Assembly: GCA_028690365.1 (NCBI GenBank) | Contig: JAQVBK010000005.1 | Location: forward strand, 1-37,979 | From: Candidatus Cloacimonadota bacterium | GTDB taxonomy: Bacteria > Cloacimonadota > Cloacimonadia > Cloacimonadales > JAQVBK01 | Length of the DNA stretch: 37,979 bases | Direction: 5' to 3' | In this document: one piece after another, positions 16,719 through 32,726 of the stretch | Layout of the letters: the number at the start of each line of letters is the position of its first letter | Position numbering within the stretch: the stretch's first letter is position 1 | Made by a program: the position numbers and the translations under genes | The notes under the pieces: generated by a model | What the model saw: only the letters and a program-made list of their open reading frames with translations | Told to the model about the DNA's origin: nothing | Databases searched by the model: none

Positions 16719-17103
16719 ATTTGCGTAAGCAAAATTTTATTCTCTGTTTTTCAGTCAAGAAATATTTGCCGCATAATGTTTCCTGATTGTCAGGAGTCCC
16801 TTATCCTGAAAGTATTCGGAATGACTTCAGTTGTATATGCCCGAAGTCCCGCAAGAGAATGATCCGACCATGTATTAAGAAATTTCAGTCGTTAGTCTAT
16901 AACTTTACTCATTAGGAAATATTTTTATTGGAGTAATTTAAAATTTTCAATATTATCAGAAAACATTGCTTGCTTTATTTGCTTTAGGGTTTTCCAATTC
17001 TTTTTATTAAATAGTAAATATAGGTGCTTGACACCATTAACTACTTATAAAAATTGGCTTCATCATTTTCGAGTTTTGGATTCTAAAGCGATTGCCATGA
17101 ATT

Positions 17104-17136
17104 CATAACCGATGGGTATAAACGGAAACGGTTATG
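17104..17136. repeat. 8-bp perfect inverted repeat upstream of the P5C dehydrogenase gene
   Basis: CATAACCG-(17 nt)-CGGTTATG. Confidence 0.6.
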
Positions 17137-17248
17137 CCTCCCGTGATAACATGCAAGATCATTATATTGCTGAAATATCAAATTTGGAAAGAAGATGAAC
17201 GTAAATAATATTATTTCTTCTTTCCCTCATTGTATCAAAGGGGGAACA

Positions 17249-18874
17249 ATGAACAATTCTACTTATTATTTCAGAGCACCGCAAAATGAACCAGTTAGGG
17301 CTTATTCAGCGAGTTCGTCTGAACGAAAACTGCTTGTTAACGAATTGGCAACCCATTCTAACAGGCGACTTGAAATTCCTTTAATCATCAATGGAAAAGA
17401 AATCTACACTGGAAAAACCGGAAAAGTAGTCATGCCTCACAACCACAGTCAAACTTTGGCTGATTATCACATTGCTACTCCCAAAGAGATCAATATGGCA
17501 ATTGAAGCCTCTTTGCGGGCTAAAGAGAAATGGCTCAAATATCCATGGGTAGAGCGAGCCTCGATAATGATGAAAGCAGCGGAACTGATTGCGGGGAAAT
17601 ACCGCTATCTTCTAAATGCCACCACGATGCTCTGTCAAAGCAAAACAGCACATCAGGCAGAAATTGATGCAATCTGTGAGACCGTAGATTTTCTGAGATT
17701 CAACTCTTTCTTTGCATCGCAGATATTTGAACAACAACCCGAATCTACTGCAGGCACTTTGAATAGAATCGAGTACAGACCTCTGGAAGGTTTCGTTTTA
17801 GCTATAACACCGTTTAATTTTACTGCCATCGCAGCTAATTTAACAACTTCGGTGGCTCTTATGGGCAATACAGTTGTATGGAAGCCGGCATCTACTTCAA
17901 TCTTATCAAATTATTATTTCATGAAAATTTTACAGGAAGCTGGATTGCCGGACGGAGTTATCAACTTTATCCCATCTTCAGGACAGGAAATATCAGAAGT
18001 TGTACTCAAACATCATGAATTAGCAGGAATACATTTCACCGGATCTACAGAAGTATTTAATAAACTGTGGAAATCGACTTCCGATAATCTGAACTTGTAT
18101 AAAGGATATCCAAAGTTAGTAGGAGAAACCGGAGGTAAGAATTTTGTAATCGTTCATGATTCTGCTAACATAGATGAAGCAGTAACTGGACTTATAAGAG
18201 GTGCTTTTGAATATCAGGGGCAAAAATGTTCTGCTGCTTCCAGAGCTTACATTTCAGAAAAAGTTTGGCCTGAATTGAAAGAAAAAATGTTGTCAGAAAT
18301 GAAAAAAGTAAAAATGGGCGATATCTCTAATTTCGAAAATTTCCTTGGTGCCGTTATTGATAGAAAATCTTTTAATACTATAATGAATTATATAAACCTC
18401 GCTAAATCAGACATTGATACCGAAATTATCTGGGGTGGTAACGGAGATGATTCTGTAGGATTTTTTATTGAACCAACTATAATCCTTACAAGTAATCCGC
18501 AATTCACCACCATGAAAGAAGAAATTTTCGGTCCTGTACTTACAGTATACATCTATAAAGACAAAGATTTTGATCAGGTTCTCGACCTTTGTGATAAAAC
18601 CTCTCCCTATTCTCTCACTGGAGCAATATTTGCCAGAGACAAGTATGTCATTGATGGAGTAATTGATAAACTGCGGTATACTGCAGGAAACTTCTATATT
18701 AACGACAAACCTACCGGAGCAGTCGTTGGTCAGCAACCTTTTGGAGGAGGCAGATCTTCCGGAACAAACGATAAAGCAGGAAGTCACCTTAATCTACTGA
18801 GATGGTTAAATCCCAGAACAATCAAAGAGACTTTCTGTTCACCTGTAGACTTTAGATATCCATTTATGAGTTAG
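17249..18874 (+). CDS. 1-pyrroline-5-carboxylate (L-glutamate gamma-semialdehyde) dehydrogenase
   Basis: Aldehyde dehydrogenase fold with GETGGKNFVIV, FEYQGQKCSAASRAY, QQPFGGGRSSGTNDKAG; ATG at 17249 has a better upstream RBS than the 17195 start of the ORF track. Confidence 0.9.
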   Translation: MNNSTYYFRAPQNEPVRAYSASSSERKLLVNELATHSNRRLEIPLIINGKEIYTGKTGKVVMPHNHSQTLADYHIATPKEINMAIEASLRAKEKWLKYPWVERASIMMKAAELIAGKYRYLLNATTMLCQSKTAHQAEIDAICETVDFLRFNSFFASQIFEQQPESTAGTLNRIEYRPLEGFVLAITPFNFTAIAANLTTSVALMGNTVVWKPASTSILSNYYFMKILQEAGLPDGVINFIPSSGQEISEVVLKHHELAGIHFTGSTEVFNKLWKSTSDNLNLYKGYPKLVGETGGKNFVIVHDSANIDEAVTGLIRGAFEYQGQKCSAASRAYISEKVWPELKEKMLSEMKKVKMGDISNFENFLGAVIDRKSFNTIMNYINLAKSDIDTEIIWGGNGDDSVGFFIEPTIILTSNPQFTTMKEEIFGPVLTVYIYKDKDFDQVLDLCDKTSPYSLTGAIFARDKYVIDGVIDKLRYTAGNFYINDKPTGAVVGQQPFGGGRSSGTNDKAGSHLNLLRWLNPRTIKETFCSPVDFRYPFMS

Positions 18875-23689: not shown

Positions 23690-25500
23690 AGATGATATCA
23701 GTAACAATAAATGATGTAACCCTTGAAGTTCAGGAAAACACAACAATTCTTCAGGCAGCTAAGAAAGCCGGATTCTCAATACCCACACTCTGTTATCACG
23801 AAGATTTGAAACCTACTTCCGCATGTGGAATTTGTGTGGTAGAAGTAGAAGGTTCGCCAACTCCTAAAAGATCATGTTCAACCCCGGTTTGGGAAGGGAT
23901 GAAAGTAAAAACTAATACAAAACATTTGCGAGAACTCAGAAAATCATTATTGGAGCTGATTCTTGCAGATCATGACGTCTCCTGTCCTACCTGCGTGGCA
24001 AATGGCAAATGTGAATTACAGAGTCTGGCATATACAATGAACATTGATACAACCAAAATTACACCATTACTCCAGAGACGAGAGGTAGATTACTCAAGCT
24101 ATTCTATCGTGAGAGATCCAAACAAATGTATTAACTGTGGAAGGTGTATTCAGGTATGCAGTGAACTACAAACCGTAAATGCATTAACTTTCTCCGGACG
24201 AGGTTTTGATTCTGTGGTGGATACAGCCTTCAATCTGGGCATGTCTAACAGTGTTTGTGTAAACTGTGGACAATGTACGGTCTATTGTCCTACCGGAGCT
24301 CTACGTGAGAAAGATGATACAGATTTTGTTTGGGAAGCACTTATGGATGAGAAGAAACATGTTATAGTACAGGAAGCACCTTCAATCAGAGCATCTCTTG
24401 GTGAAGAATTCGGAATGGAATTTGCCGAAATCAACATTGGAAAAATGTACGCAGCTCTGAAGAGATTGGGCTTTAATGCTATATTCGATACTAATTTCTC
24501 AGCCGACTTAACAATCATCGAAGAAGGAACTGAAGTTATAAACCGAATTCTGAACAACGGCAAGCTACCGTGCATAACTTCATGTTCACCGGGATGGATT
24601 AAATTCATGGAAACTTTTTTCCCTGATCTGGCCTGCAATGTATCTACCGCAAAATCACCTCAACAAATGATGGGAGCATTGGCAAAAACATACTATGCTC
24701 AGAAACAGGGAATAGATCCCGCCAACATTGTTTCAGTTTCAATTATGCCCTGTACTGCAAAGAAGTTTGAAAGTAAGAGATCAGAACATTCTGATTCCGG
24801 CTATAACGATGTTGACTATGTTCTGACCACCCGAGAATTTATAAGAATGTTGAAAGAAGCAGGGATAAATCTTAAAGATCTTCCGGAAGAAGAGCCCTTC
24901 TACGCTATGTCAGAGCACACAGGTGCCGGTACAATTTTTGGAGCAACCGGTGGAGTTATGGAAGCTGCACTTCGCTCAGTATATTTCTTAACTTCCGGCA
25001 AGAATCTTGAAGACGTAGAAATAAAAGCTGTCAGAGGGTTGAAAGGAATTAAAGAAGCAGAAGTTGATATCCCTCTGAAAAAAGAGGTAGCAGATAAGGT
25101 TGGAGCAGACACTTTTAAAGCAAAGGTCGCAGTTGCTCATGGACTTGGCAATGCCCGAAAATTGATGGAGAAAATTCAGGAACAGATCAAAGAAACCGGC
25201 AAAAGCGAATATACCTTCGTCGAAATTATGGCTTGTCCGGGAGGATGTGTTGGTGGCGGCGGTCAACCTTTTGGAAACTCCATGGCTATGCGTGCCAGAC
25301 GAGGTGAATCTCTTTACAATGATGACAGAAAACTAAAACACAGACAATCTCATGAAAACGACTCAGTGTGGCAGCTTTACAAAGATTTTATCGGAGAACC
25401 CGGATCAGAAAAAGCGCACAAACTCCTTCATACACATTATTATGAAAGAGATCAGTTTAAAGGACAAGTAGTAGAAGAAATTAAGTGTAAACACAGTTAA
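23686..25500 (+). CDS. [FeFe]-hydrogenase catalytic subunit (HydA/HndD-like)
   Basis: N-terminal 2Fe-2S, HC3-type and 2[4Fe-4S] clusters (CINCGRCIQVC, CVNCGQCTVYCP), H-cluster motifs TSCSPGW, MPCTAKKFE, EIMACPGGCVGGGGQP, C-terminal small-subunit-like tail. Confidence 0.95.
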   Translation: MKMISVTINDVTLEVQENTTILQAAKKAGFSIPTLCYHEDLKPTSACGICVVEVEGSPTPKRSCSTPVWEGMKVKTNTKHLRELRKSLLELILADHDVSCPTCVANGKCELQSLAYTMNIDTTKITPLLQRREVDYSSYSIVRDPNKCINCGRCIQVCSELQTVNALTFSGRGFDSVVDTAFNLGMSNSVCVNCGQCTVYCPTGALREKDDTDFVWEALMDEKKHVIVQEAPSIRASLGEEFGMEFAEINIGKMYAALKRLGFNAIFDTNFSADLTIIEEGTEVINRILNNGKLPCITSCSPGWIKFMETFFPDLACNVSTAKSPQQMMGALAKTYYAQKQGIDPANIVSVSIMPCTAKKFESKRSEHSDSGYNDVDYVLTTREFIRMLKEAGINLKDLPEEEPFYAMSEHTGAGTIFGATGGVMEAALRSVYFLTSGKNLEDVEIKAVRGLKGIKEAEVDIPLKKEVADKVGADTFKAKVAVAHGLGNARKLMEKIQEQIKETGKSEYTFVEIMACPGGCVGGGGQPFGNSMAMRARRGESLYNDDRKLKHRQSHENDSVWQLYKDFIGEPGSEKAHKLLHTHYYERDQFKGQVVEEIKCKHS

Positions 25501-25510
25501 TAAACGTTGA

Positions 25511-25527
25511 GTCCCCCTTTGGGGGAC
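25511..25527 (+). terminator. GC-rich hairpin after the hydrogenase operon
   Basis: GTCCCCC-ttt-GGGGGAC followed by a T-rich but imperfect tract. Confidence 0.55.
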
Positions 25528-25665
25528 ATCTTATTGTTTAGTTGTGTATCCTATATAAATATGTTGTTTGTAAATTTGATAAAAAAAGAGATATTTTAAT
25601 CATCTCTAGAAAAAATTACTCTTTTGTTTGATATGAAAGAGCTGAAAATTAATGTAATTAACTTT

Positions 25666-25785
25666 GTCTGTTATCGGATTTTCTAATAACCGGCAATAGA
25701 ATTCTCGGCAACCTAAGGTGCAGGTTAATTCTAACACCAAGGGATGACGGACCCTTACCTTCATCTCTTGGATGGAGGTTTTTTT
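25666..25785 (+). promoter_or_regulatory. Candidate riboswitch/attenuator leader of the [FeFe]-hydrogenase maturation operon
   Basis: P1 GTCTGTTATC (25666-25675)/GATGACGGAC (25743-25752); hairpin AGAATT..AACCT-aaggtgc-AGGTT-AATTCT (25698-25732); antiterminator CCAAGGGATGA (25737-25747)/TCATCTCTTGG (25761-25771); terminator ACCTTCATC-tcttg-GATGGAGGT followed by T7 (25757-25785). Confidence 0.75.
25757..25785 (+). terminator. Intrinsic terminator embedding the RBS of the downstream gene
   Basis: 9-bp stem ACCTTCATC/GATGGAGGT (one G-U) with 5-nt loop and T-tract ending immediately before ATG at 25786. Confidence 0.8.
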
Positions 25786-26034
25786 ATGAGTAAAAGTATT
25801 CATACCATCTCAATCATAATTTATGATAGAGATACCGCATTTAAAGCAGTCACAGCAATTCTGCATGACTTTGCTACCGACATCCTTCTTAGAGTTGGTT
25901 ATCCCATGAAAGAAAAAAACATCGCAATTATTTTTCTAATTACTGAAATGACAAATGATGAAATTGGAGCAATCTCGGGTAAATTAGGGCAGATAGAATC
26001 TGTAAGAGTTAAATCAACCTCATTAAAAATCTAA
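25786..26034 (+). CDS. TM1266-like iron-only hydrogenase system regulator
   Basis: MSKSIHTISIIIYDRDTAFKAVTAILHDFATDILLRVGYPMKEKNIAIIFLI..., ~80 aa, directly upstream of hydG. Confidence 0.82.
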   Translation: MSKSIHTISIIIYDRDTAFKAVTAILHDFATDILLRVGYPMKEKNIAIIFLITEMTNDEIGAISGKLGQIESVRVKSTSLKI

Positions 26035-26044
26035 AGGAGAAAAC

Positions 26045-27583
26045 ATGTCCGACTTAAATGTTAAGGATTGGGTTAAACAAGTTATAAAACAGGATGAAAT
26101 TGATAAATATCTTGTTGACGGTAAAGACTTCATTGATGAAGAAACAATCAAACAGGAATTAGAACATAACAAAAAACCGGATAAATCAAAAATTAGAGAC
26201 ATTATATCTAAATCTCTCGAAATCAAGAGACTTTCTCCTTCAGAAACCGCAGCACTGATTAATGTAAAAGATGAAGAGCTCTGGGAGGAAATGTATGAGA
26301 AAGCACTTGAAGTTAAAAAAAGAGTATATGATAACCGAATCGTATTCTTTGCCCCATTGTACCTTTCAAATCTATGTGTAAATAATTGTTCATACTGTGG
26401 CTTCCGAACTGAAAATTGTAATGAAACCAGAAAAATACTTAGTATGGATGAAATCAAAAAAGAGACTTCAGTTGTAGTATCTGAGGGACACAAAAGAATG
26501 ATTGCGGTTTGGGGTGAACACCCAAGTTCTGACATCGATTATATGGTCGACTCAATGAAAGCAATATATGAGGTTAAAGAAAAAGCACCCAACGGACCGG
26601 GATATGGTTCAATAAGAAGAATAAATATCAATGCAGCTCCCATGAAAACAGCGGATTTAAAAAAGCTGTGGGAAGTTGGCGTTGGCACATATCAGGTTTT
26701 TCAGGAAACTTACCACAAACCTACATATAGAAAAGTACATCCTCCACAGACTATAAAGGGCAATTACCAATGGCGTCTGTATGCTTTGCACCGTGCTATG
26801 GACGCTGGTATTGATGATGTTGCAACTGGAGCATTATTCGGATTGTATGACTGGCAGTTTGAAGTAATGGGTTTGCTTTATCATGCTATAGATTTGGAAC
26901 GACAGTTTGGAATTGGTCCTCACACTGTTTCATTCCCCCGCTTAATGCATGCTGCAGGGTCTGATGTTGCAGAAAAATCCCCATATCTTGTTTCTGATGC
27001 TGATTTAAAGAAGATAATTACCATTTTAAGACTATCTATTCCTTACACAGGGCTAATAATCACCGCCAGAGAAAATGCAAGCCTGAGACGGGATTTAATC
27101 CAGGTTGGCTGTACACAGACTGATGCCTCTACCAGAATAGGAATTGGTGGTTACAATGAAGCGCTAAAAAAATGGAAGGAATTACAGGAAGAATCAGACA
27201 CTCAGGAAGAATTTAAACAGCAATTTGTTTTGGGAGATACAAGAAGACTGGATGCCGTCATCAAAGAATTGACCGAAATGGGTATTATAACTTCATTCTG
27301 TACTGCTGGTTACAGATGCGGAAGAACCGGCGATAAAATCATGAATCTGTTAACTAATTGTATTGAAGGAAAATTCTGCAAACTTAACGCAATTCTCACT
27401 TTCAGAGAGTACCTGGAAGATTATGCAAGTCCGGAAACCAAAAAAGCCGGAGTTCTTCTTCTAGAAAAAGAAATGGCAGAAGTCAGCAAATATGATTGGT
27501 TTACCAAACACCCCGAAATAGTTAAGGAATTCCATAAACTCTATGAAAAGATTTCATCAGGGAAAAGAGACCTGTATATTTAG
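26045..27583 (+). CDS. hydG: [FeFe]-hydrogenase H-cluster radical SAM maturase HydG (tyrosine lyase)
   Basis: CVNNCSYCGFR radical SAM motif, C-terminal CTAGYRCGRTGDKIM...CKLNAILTFREYLEDY. Confidence 0.96.
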   Translation: MSDLNVKDWVKQVIKQDEIDKYLVDGKDFIDEETIKQELEHNKKPDKSKIRDIISKSLEIKRLSPSETAALINVKDEELWEEMYEKALEVKKRVYDNRIVFFAPLYLSNLCVNNCSYCGFRTENCNETRKILSMDEIKKETSVVVSEGHKRMIAVWGEHPSSDIDYMVDSMKAIYEVKEKAPNGPGYGSIRRININAAPMKTADLKKLWEVGVGTYQVFQETYHKPTYRKVHPPQTIKGNYQWRLYALHRAMDAGIDDVATGALFGLYDWQFEVMGLLYHAIDLERQFGIGPHTVSFPRLMHAAGSDVAEKSPYLVSDADLKKIITILRLSIPYTGLIITARENASLRRDLIQVGCTQTDASTRIGIGGYNEALKKWKELQEESDTQEEFKQQFVLGDTRRLDAVIKELTEMGIITSFCTAGYRCGRTGDKIMNLLTNCIEGKFCKLNAILTFREYLEDYASPETKKAGVLLLEKEMAEVSKYDWFTKHPEIVKEFHKLYEKISSGKRDLYI

Positions 27584-27976: not shown

Positions 27977-29023
27977 ATTATCATCTCCAGAAAAGAAATA
28001 ATCGACATGCTTAAATCTGAAAACAACGAGCAGAATGAATTACACAAAAAGGCCTGTCTGGTTAGAAATAAAAATGCAACTAACTCTGTATACTTCAGAG
28101 GTTTGATTGAATTTTCAAACATCTGTCAGAATAACTGCTATTATTGCGGTATCAGAAAATCAAACACAAAAGTTAAACGCTATGAATTGACTGTAGACCA
28201 AATACTGATGTGCGTTGATTCATGTTATAGAAACAGAATCACATCAATAGTCCTGCAGTCAGGCGAAAGAACTGATAAAGAATTCACAGACTTTATTTTT
28301 AAAATTATCAACGAAATAAAAACTAAATTCCCTGATATTTTTATCACTCTCTCTGTCGGAGAATTACCTCGAGAAATATACGAAGAGTTATTCAGATTGG
28401 GCGTACAGCGATATCTGCTGAGAATCGAAACTTCAGATGAGCAACACTACTATAAACTGCACCCGGACACAATGAGTTTTAAAAACCGGCTTCGTTGCCT
28501 CAATGATCTGAAAGAAATTGGATATCAGGTTGGTACAGGAGTAATGATAAATTCCCCATTTCAAAAAATTGAAAATCTGGCTGACGATATACTTTTTTTT
28601 AGAGATATCGACATTGACATGTGCGGAATGGGTCCATTTATTCCTCATTCAGAAACACGGTTTGCCAATTACAATTATAATAGGGAACAATCCTTAAATC
28701 TTGGTCTCAATATGATATCAGCGTTAAGAATAACTATGCCCGATATCAATATTGCTGCTACTACCGCCCTGGAGACAATCTCTAACTGTGGCAGAAAACT
28801 TGGATTGATGGCTGGTGCAAATGTTATTATGCCTCAGTTTTCTCCGTTCTCCACCAGAAAGGAATACTTTTTGTATAACGACAAACCTGTAGGAACTGAA
28901 GACGATACTGACCTTATAAACAGTTTGAAGCAAGTGTGCAAAGAAAGCGGAATGATTCCAGGTTTTGAAGATCCGGGGAGTTCCCTTCATTTCCAGAGGA
29001 GAAGACATGGCAAAATACATTGA
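27977..29023 (+). CDS. hydE: [FeFe]-hydrogenase H-cluster radical SAM maturase HydE
   Basis: IEFSNICQNNCYYCGIRKSN radical SAM motif; start proposed at ATT 27977 (AAAGGAG upstream), ORF track start is 28007. Confidence 0.88.
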   Translation: MIISRKEIIDMLKSENNEQNELHKKACLVRNKNATNSVYFRGLIEFSNICQNNCYYCGIRKSNTKVKRYELTVDQILMCVDSCYRNRITSIVLQSGERTDKEFTDFIFKIINEIKTKFPDIFITLSVGELPREIYEELFRLGVQRYLLRIETSDEQHYYKLHPDTMSFKNRLRCLNDLKEIGYQVGTGVMINSPFQKIENLADDILFFRDIDIDMCGMGPFIPHSETRFANYNYNREQSLNLGLNMISALRITMPDINIAATTALETISNCGRKLGLMAGANVIMPQFSPFSTRKEYFLYNDKPVGTEDDTDLINSLKQVCKESGMIPGFEDPGSSLHFQRRRHGKIH

Positions 29024-30269
29024 TCGATTTAACATAGGAATATTCGGCAGAATGAATGCCGGGAAAAGTTCACTTATGAACCTAATTACACAACACAACA
29101 CCTCAATCGTAGATCCTACTCCGGGCACAACTGCCGACACAAAAACTGCTCTTTACGAGTTACACGGAGTTGGACCTGCCAGAATCTTTGACACTGCCGG
29201 AATTGATGAATCATCTACCCTTGGAGAAAAAAAACGTGATAAAGTTTATTCTGTTTTGAAAGAATCTGATCTTGTACTTTTGGTTATTGATCCTTCAAGA
29301 AAGGACTTCCTGCCCGAAAAGGAGATAGTGGAAGAAGCACGCAACCGTGATAAACAGATGTTTGTTGTATACAACATTTTCAAAGAAAAGGACATGTCTG
29401 AAATCTCCAAAGTGGAAGAAGAAGTTCCACTGCTCAAATTTCATAAAAAAATCATCCTCTCAGCAGACAAGCAGGAATATCGTTTACCTCTGACTGAATT
29501 TATTAAAAATAACTTTGAATATGAAAAAACTGAACAAAAACTATTACCATTTGTTGAGAAAGATGAGTTTTATATAATGATTATTCCTATGGATGATGAA
29601 ACTCCACAGGAGAGATTTTTGCGTCCACAGGCGATGACTGAAGAATATATAACGAGACACTGGGCATATCCTATTGCGTATCGTCTCGACCTGAACGCTG
29701 CCCGTAGTGAAAACAGTTTAAACGAAAGGACTCGTTTCGAAAAACTGATAAACGGACTGGGGAAAAGACCTAAATGTATCATAACTGATTCACAAGCAAT
29801 GGATATCATGTCAAAATGGTGTCCGGAAGATATAGCTCTGACAACGTTTTCCATAATAATGATTCAATTCATGAGTAACGGACGATTGAAGAAATTTGCT
29901 GACGGCATTAAAAATCTTTCTAAGCTGAAGAAAGGTGATTCAATTCTGATCGTGGAAGCCTGCAATCATGACAGGGTATCAGAAGACATTGGAACGGTTC
30001 AGATTCCGGCAATTCTGAATAGGAAGTTCCCCGGCGTTGAAATTGAACACAATTTTGGAAGAGAATTCCAGGAGAACAAATCCTTAGGTAAATACTCTCT
30101 CATCATTCATTGTGGAGGATGCATGATCAGCAAGCAGAAATTAATCTCTCGAATCAGGGATATTGAATCATTGAACATCCCTTACACTAATTACGGAGTC
30201 TTTTTGTCTGCAGTTCAAGGGGAAAATGCTTTGAGGAAAGTGTTGCAGGTTTGGGAAATCAGCATCTGA
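29007..30269 (+). CDS. hydF: [FeFe]-hydrogenase H-cluster maturation GTPase HydF
   Basis: GRMNAGKSS P-loop, DTAGID, C-terminal EACNHD...HCGGCMI Fe-S motif; start with GAGGAGAAGAC RBS, overlapping hydE. Confidence 0.95.
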   Translation: MAKYIDRFNIGIFGRMNAGKSSLMNLITQHNTSIVDPTPGTTADTKTALYELHGVGPARIFDTAGIDESSTLGEKKRDKVYSVLKESDLVLLVIDPSRKDFLPEKEIVEEARNRDKQMFVVYNIFKEKDMSEISKVEEEVPLLKFHKKIILSADKQEYRLPLTEFIKNNFEYEKTEQKLLPFVEKDEFYIMIIPMDDETPQERFLRPQAMTEEYITRHWAYPIAYRLDLNAARSENSLNERTRFEKLINGLGKRPKCIITDSQAMDIMSKWCPEDIALTTFSIIMIQFMSNGRLKKFADGIKNLSKLKKGDSILIVEACNHDRVSEDIGTVQIPAILNRKFPGVEIEHNFGREFQENKSLGKYSLIIHCGGCMISKQKLISRIRDIESLNIPYTNYGVFLSAVQGENALRKVLQVWEISI

Positions 30270-30339: not shown

Positions 30340-32574
30340 TTAGTCGTCCAGGAAAGTAGAAAGAGTGTTTTTTACACTATTTGTAGCATCAAATGACTGT
30401 TTTGCTGATTTTCCGACAACTGCCATTTTGTCTTTCAAATCTCTGGAAATCTTCTCAACTATCTGAATCTTTGCTGCTGAATCATGTAGTTCTTCTTTCA
30501 ACATAACAATCTCTTTCTGAGAGTCGTTGACTCTTCTGACAATATCATCAGTAACAGCATTTTGTTCATTGACTGCTGCCGAAATTGTATTACTTATGCT
30601 ATCCAACTCGCTAATAGTTACTGCAATTGAATTGGCACTCTCTACTGTTTTATCAATGGCGTCTTTCATCATATTGATTTTACCCAGAATGTCTTCTGTG
30701 GAAGAGCTTGCTTGTTTAGCAAGGGCCTTTACTTCAGACGCCACAACTGCAAAACCTTTTCCTGCTTCTCCGGCGCTTGCAGCTTCAATAGTTGCATTCA
30801 GCGCTAACAGGTTTGTCTGGTCAGCAATGCTGGTTATCATGTTTACGATTTTGCTTATTTCCACCGCTGTTTGACTTAATTCAGCAATAATTTCTCTGGT
30901 TTTCATTGTTTGCTCATTAGCTTTTGAACTTATTCTTGATGCGTCCAGAGTATTTTTGGAAATTTCGCTTATGCTCATACTCATTTCATTAATCGATCTA
31001 CTCATAATTTCAGAACTTTCAACAAAATTATCCGTATTCTTCAGGGTTAATTCCACCGATTTATTAATCTTTGAAGCTTCCAGAGAAGCAGACTCTGAAG
31101 CTTTTCCTGAATCTTCCGCACGTTGCAAAATGGATTCCACAGAACTACTTATCTCACTGAGAGAATTCAGCATACTGCCTATGAACATCTTTCTTTCTGC
31201 AACTTGACGTTTAAGATTATCTTCCAGTTGTTTAATCTCGTTCTGGTTACTTTCCAGTATGGTTTTCTCAGTTTCTAGTTTTGAAGAAATGTAATGGTGA
31301 CAATTTTCCGGCTTATTAAGTCCATTAAAGATTGCGGTTGCCATATCATCGCAATTTTGATAGCCACAGGAATTGCAATTGTAAATGTCCTTTTCACTCT
31401 GCTTCCCCATCGAATTAAAAATTTTCCATTTTTCTTTTTCTGTAGGCTTCTTTATTGTATTGTTTTCTTTGAGATTTTTGTATCCTCTGCTGTATAATCC
31501 GGGTTTCCAGTATTTGTTCAAAAGTGCTTCAATTGCAGTTTTTGTTCTGTGTTCGGAGGCTATACCTCCTTTCTGATAGAGTTTCTTCATTCGCTGGTTT
31601 CTTTTTTCAATGTGATATTCAAGCTCATCCATTGATTTACCTCTTGAATTTGTTCCTGTTCCACCATTGCATCCAGCTTCACAGTTGAGACAATCAATCA
31701 GGAGAGGTGCATAATTTTTCCTAATCATTTCAGGTAGTTTATCAAGATAGTGATATATCAGGGGAGTCCCTTCAATTTTTCTTGTAACTGAACCAATCCC
31801 TTTGTTTACTCTTTCGGCAGTACGTAAAAGCCCACCGGGAGTAGAAAACAATACAGCTCTTTCTGCCGGCGGATTATCGAAATCGACTTCAGGAAATCTG
31901 TCCAGATCGGTATTGGTTTCTTTCAGATATTTTTCAAAAGCTTTAAAGGTTACATTGAAGTCACCCTGTCCCACTTCATCGAACTCTCTTTTCTTTGCCG
32001 TACAGGGAGAGACTACCAGGATCTTGTGATTGTCGTATTCAGGATAATATTCTCTGATCATTTTTATCGTGTGCATCATCGGACTGTCTGCCGGAGCAAG
32101 ATAAGGAAGAAGTTCTGGCTTATAGATTTCTATATATGTAACAATTGCCGGACACGGTTGAGAAATCACTGTTTTAGGGTGAGCACTTTCCAGGTAATTT
32201 ATATAGGATTTAATTGTGAGTTCTGCTCCAAAACTTACGTCAAAGATTCCATTAACACCTATAGATTTAAGCCACCCATTGAAATTGAGGAATCTCCCCG
32301 GAAAATTTGCTGCTATAGCAGGAGCAACTATGGCAAGGATCTTTTCTCCTTTTTTTAATGCTCCCTTAAATAAATTGAAATCATCAACAATTTGTCTTGC
32401 ATCGTGTTTGCAGGCATCAATACAAGAACCACACCCAATACATAAGTTTTCATTAATGCTGACATGATCACCACTTGCATCATTGCAGAATTTTACGGGA
32501 CAAGCAAGAATACAGGCATGACAGTTTACACATTTCTCGGCATCAACTGTAACTACTTTTGACAATCTTTGCAT
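30340..32574 (-). CDS. Sensory [FeFe]-hydrogenase-like protein fused to methyl-accepting chemotaxis signalling domain
   Basis: N-terminal [12 protein letters not shown] + [12 protein letters not shown]-cluster-like QPCPA / SPCTAKKRE / [21 protein letters not shown] 4Fe-4S domain, C-terminal [27 protein letters not shown] hairpin; start at 32574 preferred (GGAGG RBS). Confidence 0.88.
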
Positions 32575-32726
32575 CTCATTCCTCCTCAAAGAACAAATAT
32601 TCAAAAAAAACTGATAAACACTTTTGAAAATTAATGTTTATCTCTCTTGATTGTACTAATCTCCTCATTTATTCAGATGAAGGTTTTAATCTACACTTCT
32701 GTTTATTCGTTTTCACAAATTAGTAT

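Follow-up and report, generated by a model that had tools for sequence, protein, structure and literature searches.

We analysed the leader and genes of an [FeFe]-hydrogenase maturation operon in a 37,979-nt stretch of DNA from a Candidatus Cloacimonadota bacterium (contig JAQVBK010000005.1; hereafter the window). Profile matches bear out the gene order given in the initial annotation: a TM1266-like gene, hydG, a small open reading frame, hydE and hydF. Ahead of these genes lies a leader (25666-25788) in which all the strings and pairings named in that annotation are present. The features of the locus are as follows:

25666..25675, + strand: 5' strand of the initial annotation's P1, a possible local extension only, outside the conserved element (pairs in the window, not general in relatives)
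25712..25743, + strand: conserved RNA motif of 32 nt, the proposed "hyd motif" aptamer (covariance models and covariation)
25712-25714/25740-25742, + strand: motif P1, CCU/AGG
25717..25720, + strand: motif P2 5' strand, GGTG (in relatives GATG, GAAG, AGTG, GGTG, TAAT or CAAG, with matching partners)
25735..25738, + strand: motif P2 3' strand, CACC, the pseudoknot partner of the initial annotation (P2 variants in relatives)
25723-25724/25731-25732, + strand: motif P3 (covariation)
25737..25747, + strand: antiterminator 5' strand, CCAAGGGATGA, overlapping the motif 3' strand (duplex computation, fold)
25761..25771, + strand: antiterminator 3' strand, TCATCTCTTGG (duplex computation, fold)
25757..25785, + strand: intrinsic terminator hairpin with U-run (terminator scan, fold)
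25774..25778, + strand: Shine-Dalgarno sequence GGAGG in the terminator 3' arm (fold)
25786..26034, + strand: TM1266-like gene, putative iron-only hydrogenase system regulator, first gene of the operon (PF21699, E 1.5e-26)
26045..27583, + strand: hydG (TIGR03955, 427 bits)
28007..29023, + strand: hydE (TIGR03956, 373 bits)
28965..30269, + strand: hydF (TIGR03918, 320 bits, just below the cut-off of 325.6)

The TM1266-like protein also scores above the cut-off of TIGR03959 and matches PDB entry 2nzc (E 1.6e-25). Its true start is likely ATG 25786, which follows the buried Shine-Dalgarno sequence, and not the in-frame ATG 25744 of the mechanically called open reading frame. Convergent to hydF, on the minus strand at 30340-32604, the window encodes a protein with ferredoxin-type, [FeFe]-hydrogenase large-subunit C-terminal and methyl-accepting chemotaxis signalling domains, a possible hydrogen or redox chemoreceptor.

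As a whole, the leader folds at -58.2 kcal/mol, against -40.4 +/- 4.0 kcal/mol for shuffled sequences (z -4.5). The switch logic proposed earlier, in which an antiterminator competes with a terminator that buries GGAGG, holds up. The antiterminator (25737-25747/25761-25771) comprises 11 bp, the terminator arms (25757-25765/25771-25779) are followed by T's up to 25785, and the terminator scan picks up the hairpin (3 found, 0.2 expected). The duplex formed by the motif 3' strand and its tail with downstream sequence reaches -20.9 kcal/mol in the window (z -4.5 against shuffles). The antiterminator and the combination of motif and terminator have nearly equal energies (-21.2 and -20.3), as expected of a switch. 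By our rule, no sigma-70-like promoter was found just upstream of the window motif. Also upstream of it, a local hairpin is strongly predicted at 25664-25696; considered as a second, degenerate motif copy, it went unscored by either of our covariance models (R1 and R2) with filters off.

TM1266 was searched in 148 relatives and the upstream regions were extracted. A short motif, e.g. CCTGAGATGAGGGATACGTTCCGGCATCAAGGG, is common to all 49 of the 49 relatives with an adjacent leader that were read; a divergent second TM1266 copy (L083) is preceded by a doubtful version only. The window sequence, CCTAAGGTGCAGGTTAATTCTAACACCAAGGG (25712-25743), scores 37.1 bits (E 1.7e-8) with R1 and 36.2 bits (E 3.4e-8) with R2, and is the sole strong match to these models within the window. 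The motif is a hairpin interrupted by internal loops, with the layout CCU-(2 nt)-4 bp-(2)-3 bp-loop-(2)-4 bp-A-AGGG and a loop that varies from 3 to >10 nt. Folding of the first 44 nt in the window gives the motif as the structure of lowest energy (-8.7 kcal/mol). P2 reads GATG/CATC in most relatives and GGTG/CACC in the window, with further variants GAAG/CTTC (L023, L064), GATT/AATC (L011) and AGTG/CATT (L038). The GGTG and CACC strings, which the initial annotation had joined in a possible pseudoknot, are really the covarying central helix of the motif.

For covariation we scored the structure consisting of CCU/AGG, the 4-bp P2 and the 3-bp P3. Among 27 sequences from the window's order, 98.9% of cells are paired, compared with 31-59% when partners are slid. 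A second set of 27 sequences, drawn from four lineages, gives 95.9% paired cells, with 39 double-changed cells vs 12.8 after shuffling; such shuffle-based counts are inflated by relatedness, which the slide control preserves. For 94 distinct sequences, 94.0% of cells are paired (at most 55% with the partner slid), 181 cells are double-changed vs 75, and the covariation score is 0.466 (at most 0.081 when slid), in an alignment that was fitted to the model, so that both 27-sequence sets are the cleaner covariation tests. When the structure was not named beforehand, five of the six top covarying column pairs were P2 or P3 pairs. At the base of P3, most sequences have a G-U pair (80 of 94), the innermost P2 pair is absent in 18 of 94, and each of two P3 pairs is absent in 12 of 94. 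The motif's P1 (CCU/AGG) is invariant, and its pairing is therefore unproven by covariation. Judged from these alignments, the leader is a real, conserved cis-regulatory structured RNA with a secondary structure backed by covariation in P2 and P3. The examination of relatives' upstream regions recommended in the initial annotation thus yielded homologous leaders with a covarying motif, but not the P1 and P3 drawn there.

R1 detects the motif in 59 of the 125 genomes from the window's phylum, with a single copy in nearly all of them. The same model also matched HydG-recruited loci from Deltaproteobacteria, Atribacteria and Syntrophomonas, and the motif is visible by inspection in Thermosyntropha and Gelria. 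With R2, it was found in 34 of 63 genomes from the Syntrophomonas class, in 15 of 50 from the Atribacteria phylum and in 16 of 399 from a spread sample of the phylum of Dethiosulfatibacter and Syntrophomonas, while the group of the Deltaproteobacterium yielded a single real case. HydG-bearing genomes of Clostridium, Dethiosulfatibacter, Maledivibacter, Odoribacter, other Bacteroidales and Spirochaetes GWF1 gave no match at E 0.1, and a search of viral contigs with TM1266 gave nothing. Five weak model matches (L128, L166, L167, L168 and L183; per-genome E 0.0036-0.07) have no hyd genes and were set aside as chance.

The position of the motif is consistent: it lies 5' of, and on the same strand as, one functional gene group. 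At all 83 of the 83 strong loci tested, a TM1266, HydG, HydE or HydF gene follows downstream on the same strand, mostly at a distance of 20-200 nt. The first gene after the motif is TM1266 or hydG, or TM1266 is followed by hydE or hydF. In many Syntrophomonas relatives there are two copies, the first ahead of TM1266 and the second between that gene and hydG, and three loci (L140, L141, L154) have two copies in immediate tandem. Close tandem copies at these loci and at L189 precede TM1266-hydE, hydE-type and aspA-hydF operons, and the second copy is weak in some of them.

In one genome the motif and a terminator stand ahead of aspA-hydF. The dithiomethylamine ligand was recently shown to receive nitrogen through aspartate ammonia-lyase, an enzyme often encoded close to hyd genes (PMC11736057); because of this role, the aspA-hydF case fits the H-cluster pathway. 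A motif of the same kind occurs upstream of an ECF-transporter substrate component (PF12822) in seven orthologs from seven genomes (L194-L200), with R2 scores of 19.9-29.3 bits, below those of the hyd leaders. The 3' strand of the motif here closes with AAGGGGG or a comparable purine run, which lies some 10 nt ahead of the start codon and is probably itself the Shine-Dalgarno sequence. The transporter component matches a general Pfam family only, with no substrate-specific assignment. Its genes adjoin trpS in most inspected loci, and several of them adjoin branched-chain-type ABC transporter genes.

Expression platforms were compared across lineages. An intrinsic terminator precedes the gene in 32 of 35 leaders of the Syntrophomonas class, 14 of 14 of Atribacteria and the single Deltaproteobacterium leader, so that 47 of 50 leaders outside the window's phylum have a terminator after the motif, compared with about 2 expected in all. 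In the window's phylum, just 3 of 48 leaders satisfy our strict rule for terminators, most having no U-run, and a -10 hexamer lies 11-17 nt upstream of the motif in about half. In Atribacteria and the Syntrophomonas class, the motif can base-pair with an arm or the loop of the terminator. Atribacterial leaders do so through the 5' strand of the motif (mean z -4.4), with 12 of 12 positions complementary in one of them (L126; CCTGCGGTGAGG/CCTCACCGCAGG); in the Syntrophomonas class it is the 3' strand together with the tail (mean z -2.2). The switching step is less certain in Atribacteria, as the lower stem of the terminator might still form alongside the alternative duplex. The expression platform is mutually exclusive with the conserved fold, with alternative pairing that is weak when averaged over the leaders of the window's phylum (mean z -1.1 and -0.8). 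In some leaders of that phylum (L022, L036) the motif 5' strand pairs strongly with a TCCTTCATC element, which if left unpaired could mask the Shine-Dalgarno sequence. In all well-resolved cases, the folded motif is predicted to mean OFF.

In the mechanism that we propose for the window, the motif (25712-25743) would fold first during transcription. The folded motif, presumably with ligand bound, would withhold its 3' strand from the antiterminator; the terminator (25757-25785) would then form, halt transcription and hide the Shine-Dalgarno sequence (OFF). If the motif were unfolded, the antiterminator (25737-25747/25761-25771) would form instead, blocking the terminator and leaving the Shine-Dalgarno sequence free (ON). 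The folded state should correspond to OFF because the antiterminator overlaps the motif 3' strand and the Shine-Dalgarno sequence is buried once the terminator forms. In other lineages, the read-out could run through a terminator arm or loop that pairs with the motif 3' or 5' strand, or through a Shine-Dalgarno sequence located in the motif or downstream of it. The RNA fold, covariation, gene association, terminators and alternative pairing are computed; the direction (OFF) and the small-molecule trigger we infer.

On this comparative evidence, the motif probably represents a new small cis-regulatory RNA class, most likely a metabolite-sensing riboswitch, that controls the genes for H-cluster maturation of [FeFe]-hydrogenases. 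The earlier suggestion of an unrecognised riboswitch on the maturation operon survives as a conserved cis-acting RNA switch with no Rfam match, and loses its P1/P3 fold. Substrates or products of H-cluster assembly are natural candidates for the ligand. More tentatively, the class may sense an intermediate or by-product of this assembly (CO/CN/Fe/dithiomethylamine). It would then be the first RNA sensor devoted to [FeFe]-hydrogenase maturation, and would also serve an ECF-transporter gene whose product may move this compound or a related one; this specific version we hold to be possible rather than probable. A compact RNA that occurs in several phyla and is linked almost exclusively to maturases, aspA-hydF and one transporter would offer a handle on which compound cells monitor while the H-cluster is built, and would also lend itself, as a natural element, to the control of hydrogen production.

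Another account of the same terminator and Shine-Dalgarno switch is that the motif is a protein-binding RNA site, worked by TM1266 (autoregulation) or another protein. The controlled operon often begins with TM1266, a true TM1266 is encoded in 17 of the 20 motif genomes tested (even if not adjacent), and a 32-nt hairpin also matches the size of a protein-binding site. Small hairpins that often occur in tandem are likewise seen in the pan motif, for which protein binding has been proposed (PMC2864571), although tandem copies fit either a riboswitch or a protein site. However, the motif does not always accompany a TM1266 gene: one genome that is 99% complete (G043) has lost TM1266, yet keeps the motif before hydG. 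This is one clear exception, possibly a recent loss; at this locus (L169, contig C149), apparent last codons of TM1266 lie between the intact motif and hydG. Conversely, two genomes (G139 and G141) have TM1266 without the motif, and the motif also stands ahead of the ECF-transporter gene. We favour a metabolite riboswitch over a TM1266-binding site because the motif precedes a transporter and is kept by the genome without TM1266, and we regard a protein site as unlikely.

It is very improbable that the larger P1-P2-P3 architecture of the initial annotation is the real aptamer, be it a divergent member of the SAM clan or a new class. Its outer P1 (25666-25675/25743-25752) does form 10 bp in the window, two of them G-U, beats shuffles (z -3.9) and could enclose the conserved motif. 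It is not general in relatives, however, where P1-like pairing has a mean z of -0.6, and recognisable promoters place the predicted start within a few nucleotides of the motif, leaving no room for it. The P3 of that architecture is not seen in relatives as a conserved fold; it excludes the conserved motif by placing the covarying bases in different pairs. The resemblance to the SAM clan dissolved as well, since cmscan of 25400-25900 returned no SAM family to E = 10. A DNA operator near the start site, with the inverted repeat as a dimer site for a transcription factor, would suit the frequent placement of the motif right after promoter-like sequence in the window's phylum, but is scarcely credible given the variable loop, an orientation that always matches the gene, the copies that sit inside operons of Syntrophomonas relatives, after TM1266 and before hydG, the terminators that follow the motif and the dominance of G-U at one helix position.

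The riboswitch reading was also set against known RNA classes. The Rfam search advised in the initial annotation found, with cmscan, no family matching the leader even at E = 10, and in Rfam 15 no family exceeds its gathering score at the motif in the leader or in relatives' loci. PreQ1-I and HMP-PP (thiS motif) riboswitches are likewise small aptamer-like RNAs in 5' leaders that act through intrinsic terminators or Shine-Dalgarno masking, and HMP-PP switches also embed alternative folds within the terminator (PMC6478431), but the hyd motif differs from both in sequence, fold and regulon and has no cmscan match to them. The SAM-I riboswitch (S-box, RF00162) and its clan have in common with the leader the short strings CGGCAACC and AAGGTGC and the regulation of SAM-using enzymes. 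Unlike the four-way junction with a P2 kink-turn of SAM-I, however, the conserved element is a single interrupted 32-nt hairpin with neither junction nor kink-turn, and relatives do not retain the shared strings. The pan motif, too, is a simple hairpin whose internal loops are conserved, and it is frequently found in tandem before cofactor-related genes (PMC2864571); it precedes different genes, whereas the hyd motif is tied to terminators and antiterminators and lacks an Rfam match. The open-licence papers that we found on [FeFe]-hydrogenase maturation deal with its chemistry, and none of them describes a control RNA for these genes; a 2017 survey of 224 candidate RNAs lay outside this scope.

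The Moco/Wco riboswitch (RF01055) is a further leader RNA linked to a metal cofactor, and tandem Wco copies have been reported before hydrogenase genes (PMC9481103). Its aptamer of about 135 nt is unrelated in structure and does not match the hyd leader. The window itself contains a Moco/Wco copy at 17055-17208 on the plus strand (58.8 bits). It precedes a gene for L-glutamate gamma-semialdehyde dehydrogenase (17195-18874, plus strand), an odd pairing of riboswitch and gene, which is followed by genes for NuoE/NuoF-like proteins and an NADH-dependent group A6 [FeFe]-hydrogenase.
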